The position numbers were made by a program, and so were the translations under genes. From Gemmatimonadaceae bacterium (GTDB lineage Bacteria; Gemmatimonadota; Gemmatimonadetes; Gemmatimonadales; Gemmatimonadaceae), in the NCBI GenBank assembly GCA_036003045.1, contig DASYSS010000044.1, positions 1 to 57,217 on the forward strand: a stretch of 57,217 bases of DNA. Reading direction: 5' to 3'. Below the pieces are notes generated by a model that was not told the origin of the DNA, searched no databases, and saw only the letters and a list, made by a program, of their open reading frames with translations. Within the stretch, counting starts at the first letter, position 1; every line of letters begins with the position of its first letter. Positions 40,469 to 42,788 of this stretch are shown piece by piece.

Positions 40469-41002
40469 TCAGTACCGGCGAATCGACAGCCGATTGCTGG
40501 ACGGATTGAACCGACACGTGATGGCCACGCCCTCGCGTCCGCGCAGGCGAGTGGTAAGCGATACGTCCCACAGGTTGCCACGACGCGTCGCCGGGCCGAC
40601 CGCGGTGACATGGTAGCCGGGCGCCGAGTTCACGAAATCCTCACAGCGGCGCTGTGCGCGCATGGACTGCGATTCGAAAATGCGGCCCGCGGCGGTTCCC
40701 GATCGCTCGAAGCCGGGAAGATCGACGAGCCCGCGCGCGCCGTCGAACCGGCAAGTCACGTCGAACTCGTTTGATCCGCGGCGAACGCGCATCGGAAAGG
40801 CGTACATGCTTCCATTCAGCGACTCGCGGTCGCGGCGGAGGACTACGTAGCCGGCTCGGGACACGGCGGCGTTGCACGCGTCGCGCGCGCGCCCCCACAT
40901 GCCCGGTTGCTGGGCCTCGGCGCCCGTACTCAGGAGCGCCGCGGCCGCCAATGAAAGGATGCCGAGGTGGACCAGCGGCATCCGTCGGATTCGGTCATTC
41001 AT
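40469..41002 (-). CDS. small secreted protein, unknown
   Basis: 177-aa protein with a signal peptide (LVHLGILSLAAAALLSTGAEAQ). The mature part has four cysteines (DACNAAV, VTCRF, RRCEDF, ITCRF) spaced so that two disulfides are possible, and two similar halves (FDVTCRFDGARGLVDL and VAITCRFNPSSNRLSI). It may be an ancient duplication of a small beta module. Function not recognised. The ATG at 41002 lies almost at the predicted transcription start (see 41007-41034), so the mRNA may be leaderless; ATG 40981 is the alternative. Confidence 0.65.
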   Translation of the reverse strand: MNDRIRRMPLVHLGILSLAAAALLSTGAEAQQPGMWGRARDACNAAVSRAGYVVLRRDRESLNGSMYAFPMRVRRGSNEFDVTCRFDGARGLVDLPGFERSGTAAGRIFESQSMRAQRRCEDFVNSAPGYHVTAVGPATRRGNLWDVSLTTRLRGREGVAITCRFNPSSNRLSIRRY

Positions 41003-41034: not shown

Positions 41035-41228
41035 TTAACGTCGCGCGATGCGAGTTGCCCGCGCGGTCATAGGCCCTTAGGGCACGATTCGCGCCGTGTG
41101 CCGCGTGACGCGCGTCGCAGTCGTCGCGAAAAAGACCGGACCACTTCGGCGACGTGCGGCTCACCCCCGACCCCGCTGTCGGCGACGCCGGCGATCGTGG
41201 GCGCCACACGCGGTGGCGCGGGCGATCC

Positions 41229-41257
41229 TTGTCCGGCCAACTCGAGTACGTTATACT
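41229..41257 (+). promoter_or_regulatory. strong sigma-70-type promoter of the candidate sRNA
   Basis: TTGTCC (41229-41234), 17-bp spacer, TATACT (41252-41257), giving a start near 41264. It is one of the best visual promoter matches in the window, and no long ORF begins directly downstream. Confidence 0.6.
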
Positions 41258-41263
41258 TTTGAA

Positions 41264-41340
41264 AAGCGAGACATGCGCGCAGCGCATGGACAAGTTCCGA
41301 ATTCACTTGGGGCCTGCCGAATTGCGAGCAGGCCCTTTTT
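41264..41340 (+). ncRNA. candidate small RNA (about 77 nt) with terminator
   Basis: The stretch between the 41229 promoter and an intrinsic terminator has three stems. A perfect 7-bp hairpin CATGCGC-gca-GCGCATG lies at 41272-41288. A weak CAAGT/ACTTG stem is at 41291-41309. The terminator stem is at 41310-41335. No ORF with a ribosome-binding site fits inside. It does not look like 6S, tmRNA, RNase P or SRP RNA, all of which are longer. It may be a trans-acting sRNA or a terminated leader (attenuator) of the desaturase operon about 220 bp downstream. Confidence 0.55.
41310..41340 (+). terminator. intrinsic terminator of the candidate sRNA
   Basis: GGGCCTGC (41310-41317) pairs with GCAGGCCC (41328-41335) over a 10-nt loop and is followed directly by TTTTT. 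This is the most classical intrinsic terminator seen in the window. Confidence 0.75.
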
Positions 41341-41467
41341 GCGCTCAGTCGCTTCGGGACGGCAGCCTCGGCCGCCGCGGGCCGAGCATTACGCAGGCAA
41401 GCCGCGTCGGTTTCTACGGTTTCGCGGCGCTCGGAACACAGGAAACAACATCAGGGGAAAAAAGAAC

Positions 41468-41560
41468 GTGCCTACGCTGAACGGGACCGCATTGAATGCG
41501 ACGTCGTCCAGGGGACGAAACGCGCTTGCGTTTGAAGACGTGACCAGGTTGGGTCGATGA
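41468..41560 (+). CDS. possible 30-codon leader peptide coupled to the desaturase
   Basis: A GTG-initiated frame (VPTLNGTALNA... ending FEDVTRLGR) preceded by AGGGGA at a workable distance. Its TGA overlaps the desaturase ATG as ATGA, the same junction used by the desaturase and infA. It has no recognised domain and the GTG start is weak evidence. It could instead be untranslated leader. If translated it would couple desaturase synthesis to leader translation. Confidence 0.35.
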   Translation: MPTLNGTALNATSSRGRNALAFEDVTRLGR

Positions 41561-42573
41561 GCCGAGTGGCCCCGCCCAAGGCGGGAGTTCATTGGCGCCA
41601 GGCGGTCGAGCCCTTCACCGGCCCCAGTGCGCCGCGCGCCGCGCTTCAGTTGGCCACAACGCTCGTTCCGCTGGCCTTGACGATGTGGGCGACTCGGGTC
41701 GCCATGCCGGTGTCGCCGCTCCTCGCGGCGTTGTTCGTCTTTCCGGCCGCCGGTCTGCTCATTCGCACTTTCATCTTGATGCACGATTGTGCGCACGGAT
41801 CGTTCTTCGCAACCCGCCGCGTCAACGATGCAGTCGGATTCGTGACTGGTGTGTTGACCCTTACGCCGTTTACGCAATGGCGGCGCGATCACGCGCTGCA
41901 TCACGCATCATCGGGCGACCTGGATCGTCGTGGACATGGCGACGTCAAAACGCTCACCGTGCGAGAGTACGTTGCGAAGCCTCCTCTCGGCCGACTCGCG
42001 TACCGAGTCGTCCGACATCCCCTGCTGCTCCTCATCGGCGGGCCGTTCTACCTGGCGCTCAGCAATCGGATCTCTGGCCAGGGCGCATCGAGCGGCCCGC
42101 GTCAGATCGCGAACGTGTGGCTCACGAACGCAGTCATCGGCATCCTGCTGACCGTCGCCTTCCTCACTCTCGGCTGGGCGACGGTGGTACTCGCGTACCT
42201 GCTGCCGTTCTACCTCGCGGCCATGGCCGGCGTGTGGCTGTTCTACGTCCAGCACCAATTCACGGATGCGTACTGGTCACGGCACGAGGACTGGGACTAC
42301 GTCGAGGCGGCGCTGCGAGGCAGTTCGCATCTGCGACTGCCGCCCGTGCTCCAATGGTTCACCGGCAGCATCGGCCTGCATCACGTGCACCACGTGGCTC
42401 CGAAGATTCCCAACTACCGCCTGCAGCCCTGTCACGACGCGAATGAGATGTTTCACGGTTCGCCGGTAGTCACGCTCCGCTCCGGCACGGCCGGGCTGCG
42501 CCTTGCGCTGTGGGATGAGGAACGCAAACGCCTCGTGCGATTTCGTGACGTTGCTCCGGCGAGGCACGGATGA
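41557..42573 (+). CDS. membrane fatty-acid desaturase
   Basis: 338-aa membrane di-iron desaturase. The three histidine boxes are complete: [15 protein letters not shown] and, late, [10 protein letters not shown]. Hydrophobic helices fall at about 30-70, 155-175 and 190-230. The family inserts double bonds into acyl lipids or modifies carotenoids using O2 and an electron donor. The box pattern HDCxH/HxxHH/HxxHH fits the acyl-lipid (DesA/DesK-like) group. It starts at ATG 41557 and its TGA overlaps the infA-like ATG, so translation is coupled with an initiation factor gene. Confidence 0.88.
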
Positions 42574-42788
42574 AAGAAGAGGCGATCGAAATCGAAGGAA
42601 CCGTTGCCGAAGTCTTGCCGAGCGCGATGTTTCGCGTCGACTTGGACAACGGCCACCGCCTTCTGGCCACCACCGCGGGCAAGATGCGGCGCTTTCGCAT
42701 ACGCATCATCGCCGGCGATCGGGTGACGGTCGCCGTGTCGCCGTACGATTTGGGCCGTGGGCGGATCACCTTCCGACACAAGAGCTGA
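42570..42788 (+). CDS. infA: translation initiation factor IF-1 (possible paralogue)
   Basis: 72-aa S1/OB-fold protein. It starts [33 protein letters not shown], then [35 protein letters not shown], the IF-1 signature. Binds the 30S A site with IF-2 and IF-3. It is not beside the usual secY/rpmJ/rpsM genes, so it may be a second copy; I cannot see the rest of the genome. It overlaps the desaturase by 4 nt, an unusual partner. Confidence 0.92.

Follow-up and report, generated by a model that had tools for sequence, protein, structure and literature searches.

A leader element common to many Gemmatimonadota probably determines whether genes of the cold response are expressed

RNA-level control of cold-shock genes has been worked out mostly in Escherichia coli. 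The cold box of this organism is a leader motif common to several cold-shock genes, and the element presented here is like it by description only. According to the available part of PMC6511841, a shift of E. coli to the cold raises IF1, IF2 and IF3 relative to ribosomes. Furthermore, a rho mutation in E. coli increases the expression of cspB and cspG fusions more than 2-fold (PMC7815308, partial text), and the accessible text of PMC9765468 describes attenuation of intrinsic termination by E. coli CspD and, by citation of Bae 2000, by CspA, CspC and CspE. In Agrobacterium, the cspA 5′ UTR is an Rfam cspA match and, in the Northern blots covered by the available portion of PMC3738593, was seen only within a ~500-nt cspA mRNA.

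Here, we analyse an element in a stretch of 57,217 nucleotides from a Gemmatimonadaceae bacterium (contig DASYSS010000044.1), called the window throughout. The element is likely a transcription attenuator that forms the 5′ leader of a cold-shock operon. A search of the window gave no Rfam match at the gathering score, and the leader is a candidate RNA family. No paper on it was found in a literature search that had subscription papers largely outside its scope; csp, cold shock and Gemmatimonas are nowhere mentioned in PMC2864571 and PMC8632094.

The features of the locus are collected in Table 1. The promoter proposed in the preliminary description is present in the sequence and is the sole sigma-70-type match between 40000 and 42500, where shuffles expect 0.2. 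Its −10 pattern TANNNT is kept in 82 of 84 aligned copies (10.2 for shuffled upstream sequence), and a TTG located 15–19 nt 5′ of TANNNT in 76 of 84 (shuffled: 1.1). The predicted terminated RNA runs from ~41264 to 41340 and comprises ~77 nt. The fold of the RNA 41263–41343 has an energy of −36.6 kcal/mol (z = −3.56), which 1 of 200 shuffles equalled. Several ORFs overlap the leader element in the window. A small-ORF reading of the element was rejected after two of them, 41096–41560 (+) and 41067–41306 (−), had been examined without a Pfam match.

Table 1. Coordinates of the leader element and of the genes behind it in the window
Feature	Position	Strand	Details
Promoter TTGTCC-17-TATACT	41229..41257	+	−35 TTGTCC 41229-41234, 17-nt spacer, −10 TATACT 41252-41257
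Predicted transcription start	41263..41265	+	6-8 nt past −10; onset of RNA conservation
P0, candidate long-range helix	41264..41269 (AAGCGA), partner 41349-41354 (TCGCTT)	+	6 bp in the window, found by eye
P1 hairpin CATGCGC-GCA-GCGCATG	41272..41288	+	7 bp
Conserved motif GGACAAGTTCC	41288..41298	+	near-invariant in alignment A2
Terminator hairpin	41310..41335	+	stem GGGCCTGC 41310-41317 / GCAGGCCC 41328-41335, 8 bp, 10-nt loop
U-tract TTTTT	41336..41340	+	directly behind terminator stem
Read-through leader	41341..41467	+	divergent in the window
Eroded CSP gene	41468..41560	+	30-codon remnant ending EDVTRLGR; stop overlaps desaturase start (ATGA)
Fatty-acid desaturase	41557..42573	+	PF00487, E 1e-32
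Translation initiation factor IF-1	42570..42788	+	PF01176, E 1.3e-23

The 7-bp hairpin, the 8-bp stem and the T-run had been predicted beforehand; all were found in place and their conservation goes far beyond chance. In an alignment fitted to the covariance model (87 rows, 86 of them distinct), 13 of the 14 pairs of P1 and the terminator show both-side changes and 97.6% of cells are paired. The covariation score is 0.376 against 0.187 in shuffled data, and none of 500 shuffles reaches the observed score; one pair-count control (control a) ignores relatedness. Across the 86 distinct rows, both-side changes affect 6 of 6 modelled P1 pairs (95.4% of cells paired) and 7 of 8 terminator pairs (99.3%). 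In 16 copies, P1 already had such changes at 3 pairs. Three rows of alignment A3 that lie behind CSP genes (L107:546, L105:1303 and L114:544) were kept in the 87-row count and in covariance model R2, and were excluded from the U-tract, P0 and promoter counts. A MAFFT alignment restricted to CSP-first copies at 190 nt or more (A5, 56 copies) gave 90.2% of cells paired for the P1 core, 96.2% for the terminator and 72.7% for P0. The motif GGACAAGTTCC possibly forms a 3-bp mini-hairpin, P2, whose candidate pairs are formed in 89.8% of A5 cells and are mostly invariant. Loss of stem conservation in relatives had been named at the outset as the outcome that would speak against the element, and both stems are instead kept by compensatory changes.

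A GC-rich hairpin followed by a U-tract, the sequence signature of an intrinsic terminator, is present in the window and conserved over 84 copies. In these copies, the mean number of T falls from 5.54 in the 8 nt behind the stem to 2.55 in the following 8 and to 1.43 in nt 17–24. The U-run stays directly behind the stem even where the loop and stem sequence is replaced. A motif scanner with a loop limit of 8 nt did not report the window terminator, probably because its 10-nt loop exceeds this limit. In many copies of genus g22 the U-tract is interrupted (e.g. GTTTGTGTTTG), which implies weak termination there and counts against the attenuator reading.

The element recurs within the genome and across the family. 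A BLAST search of the source genome with 151 bases retrieved three more strong copies, on contigs C38, C10 and C54, and covariance model R1, built from 16 copies, added a weaker one on C43 (E 1.5e-4), for a genome total of at least five. With 121 bases, matches were obtained in 9 of 59 genomes, the source genome included. At E ≤ 1e-3, R1 detects the element in 67 of the 179 genomes of the family. At E ≤ 1e-4, R2 matches 72 of the 395 genomes of the phylum, an upper figure because its weak tail holds false positives (ordinary terminators); 60 of the 72 belong to the same family, and the matches outside it are weak. An exact pattern occurs in 35 stretches of genome records, 33 of them labelled Gemmatimonadota, Gemmatimonadetes, Gemmatimonadaceae or Gemmatimonas, one labelled 'bacterium' and one a MAG labelled Candidatus Kuenenia. 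Three of the six CSP genes of the source genome have no model match, which again counts against the attenuator reading, as does the capture of ordinary terminators by R2.

The weak tail of R2 adds 30 loci, of which 18 precede a CSP gene, one precedes X178 and 11 have no match to the query set. By eye, seven of these 11 look like ordinary terminators (L212, L215, L217, L220, L232, L233 and L234). Among the individual loci inspected by eye, L221, which belongs to a different family within the class, has a weak hairpin and U-run ahead of an infC-like gene and is probably separate; L235 precedes a hisG-like gene, and L226 resembles the true element and precedes a hypothetical gene. L239 carries a second match directly behind its CSP gene. 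Second weak matches also occur behind CSP genes in genus g30 (L107:546-630, L105:1303-1388 on the minus strand, L114:544-628); these may represent a CSP terminator or a tandem copy.

A scan for a hairpin plus U-run within 330 nt upstream found one in 27 of 35 sampled CSP genes, mostly 130–155 nt before the start, against 2–5 of 35 in shuffles and 61 of 544 windows taken elsewhere in these CSP loci. By coordinates, 11 of the 35 loci coincide with R1 or R2 matches; among the 24 others, 16 carry the signal without a listed model match, families of the same order included. A few of the scan signals (e.g. L198 at −301) may be terminators of upstream genes.

The genes behind the element form a consistent set. 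Across the 84 strongest loci, the first gene behind the element encodes a CspA-like cold-shock protein (CSP) in 66 cases, IF-1 in five, a response regulator in four, the hypothetical X178 in three, a desaturase in three, a DEAD-box helicase in one and an unassigned protein in one; the remaining locus has no match. This last locus (L012) holds a partial IF-1-like stretch. Overall, a CSP gene comes first at 84 of 114 loci, and in 71 of these 84 the element starts 196–234 nt before the CSP start codon. As expected for an attenuator leader, the element lies behind a promoter and 5′ of the same functional gene set in relatives. Several single loci deserve mention. A divergent copy (L098) precedes a DeaD/DbpA-type RNA helicase (PF00270, PF03880) whose start lies 92 nt past the element start. 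The copy on contig C54 of the source genome (L004) precedes a long ORF without Pfam match. Related proteins of ~178 aa are the first gene at L070, L092, L101 and L231; the one member examined has no Pfam match.

A desaturase/IF-1 operon had been recognised downstream from the start and is borne out by both Pfam matches, but the CSP remnant in between had been missed. An alignment with the C38 copy, whose CSP is intact, indicates that the remnant retains the 3′ third of the gene and that its middle is deleted. With the CSP gene eroded, the leader in the window now precedes the desaturase and IF-1. The C38 copy comprises the leader, an intact CSP, a 79-aa desaturase remnant, bS21 and IF-1. The window is its mirror image, with a CSP remnant and an intact desaturase, then IF-1. 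Read from the two sequences, this is reciprocal gene erosion in duplicated cold-shock operons. The CSP gene is also eroded at the other two desaturase-first loci: both ends are retained at L060, whereas at L061 about seven initial codons are left and continue in frame into the desaturase.

Beyond the terminator, the second half of the leader in CSP-type relatives has a hairpin that covaries, a candidate pseudoknot and, ahead of the SD, a GUCGG/CCGAC helix. These were studied in alignment A4 (45 copies), which consists of 48 hand-picked leaders minus L011, L018 and L019 (deletions) and from which the window copy is absent. The divergence of the window copy in this part is a further point against the attenuator reading. 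The hairpin shows both-side changes at 6 of 6 pairs and is 77.5% paired. The two stems of the candidate H-type pseudoknot CCC-nnCGUGA-GGG..UCACG are 93.3% and 98.7% paired, with few double changes. Of these helices, the unsupervised A4 consensus fold predicted just one, the second pseudoknot stem (6 pairs); the others were assigned by hand. The pseudoknot segment is very conserved in CSP-type leaders, e.g. L078:229-371. The pseudoknot/hairpin region is missing in L018 and L019 and its first part in L011; the terminator is kept in all three.

At the level of sequence, a conserved promoter, an early terminator and a read-through leader before cold-shock genes are the anatomy of an attenuator, a reading that draws on conservation, covariation, the U-tract, the promoter and the gene association. 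Transcription would start at the sigma-70-type promoter and yield an RNA that folds into P1, the GGACAAGUUCC segment and the GC-rich hairpin with its U-tract. A fraction of the polymerases would halt at the U-tract in vivo and release the ~77-nt RNA. Those reading through would produce the operon mRNA, in which P0 could close around the first domain and, in CSP-type leaders, the candidate pseudoknot and the helix directly before the SD may form. Read-through would increase in the cold or upon CSP binding to the nascent leader; such a CSP–leader feedback loop is proposed because E. coli CSPs reduce intrinsic termination, as far as the partial source goes. We advance more tentatively a regulon-wide riboregulator with positive feedback, spanning CSP, IF-1, desaturase, response-regulator and DeaD-type helicase genes of Gemmatimonadota. 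The intrinsic terminator would then be a cold switch relieved by the encoded CSP, with the ~77-nt RNA as the off state and a P0-closed junction as the on state; this wider scheme is possible, though we would not expect all of it to hold.

A different view of the same helices is that the element is a structured, non-terminating 5′ UTR, a thermosensor or stability element that exerts control through translation or mRNA decay as in E. coli cspA. P0, P1, P2 and the GC hairpin would then form a four-way junction with the U-run as a linker. P0 strands in relatives include GCGACACA/TGTGTCGY, GCGATACA/TGTATCGC, GCGATGCA/TGCATCGT and GCGGTGAA/TTCACCGT; two P0 pairs have 18 and 10 double-change cells in A5, and P0 complementarity (6.68) exceeds all 200 partner permutations (mean 6.40, max 6.56). 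Of 8 sequences folded at 37 and 15 °C, several have a cloverleaf-like minimum-energy fold, and the candidate pseudoknot further downstream and the helix close to the SD suit this view as well. P0 can close only once polymerase has passed the terminator, with which it is not in competition. The hairpin could thus serve as one structural arm of the junction, which speaks against the attenuator reading. A non-systematic look through folding and pairing counts saw helices (P0, extended arm) that are compatible with the terminator and no conserved antiterminator; a pairing of GGACAAGUUCC with the terminator loop was considered and then set aside. However, at least 6 of 7 P0 pairs form in 27 of the 56 CSP-type copies and fewer in the other 29, compared with 99.3% of cells paired in the terminator stem, and the U-run is kept directly behind the stem despite replaced loop and stem sequence. 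We consider a non-terminating UTR unlikely.

Less probable still is a trans-acting sRNA, in which ~77-nt RNAs from several loci per genome would control other mRNAs, with the leader position of secondary importance. The element has its own promoter and terminator, several copies per genome and the near-invariant GGACAAGTTCC, but its placement 5′ of CSP, IF-1 and desaturase genes at a near-constant CSP distance points to cis action. Of the two options in the preliminary description, the terminated riboregulatory leader is strongly favoured by this placement. Because cold-shock genes follow the copies, the stand-alone free sRNA gene was dropped as the main reading, although action in trans by the terminated RNA of ~77 nt would still be possible. 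Finally, the hairpin might be a chance structure or the terminator of an upstream gene, and the 61 of 544 control windows indicate that a hairpin plus U-run is not rare at CSP loci. The nearest non-crossing upstream ORF (40469–41002, no Pfam match) lies on the minus strand, on which ground an upstream-gene terminator is rejected, and conservation extends over promoter, P1 and terminator as a single unit; we give this explanation hardly any weight. The attenuator reading is retained, and the conserved terminator leader makes CSP autoregulation by antitermination directly testable in a poorly studied phylum.

Among described systems, RF01766 (cspA thermoregulator, the E. coli cspA 5′ UTR) shares a long structured leader on a CspA-family mRNA with the element, as well as a pseudoknot and a helix near the SD, which are candidates here. 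Membership was rejected: in 12 CSP loci searched with RF01766, 10 gave scores below the 78-bit gathering score (best 61.3, coding region in the match) and two gave none, and one leader without coding region gave no match. By description, RF01766 is a thermoregulator that works at the level of translation, and it is not known to contain an intrinsic terminator, whereas the leader presented here has a conserved one. The E. coli cspB and cspG 5′ regions show early termination that limits csp expression, as proposed for the leader; it is Rho-dependent according to the available part of PMC7815308, in contrast to the conserved intrinsic terminator found here. Given that the Agrobacterium 5′ UTR was not seen alone in the portion of PMC3738593 at hand, a short product in Gemmatimonadota would be a real difference. 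The attenuation of intrinsic terminators by CSPs (PMC9765468, partial text) concerns E. coli sRNA terminators and other operons rather than a csp leader, but it acts on the same step as proposed here.
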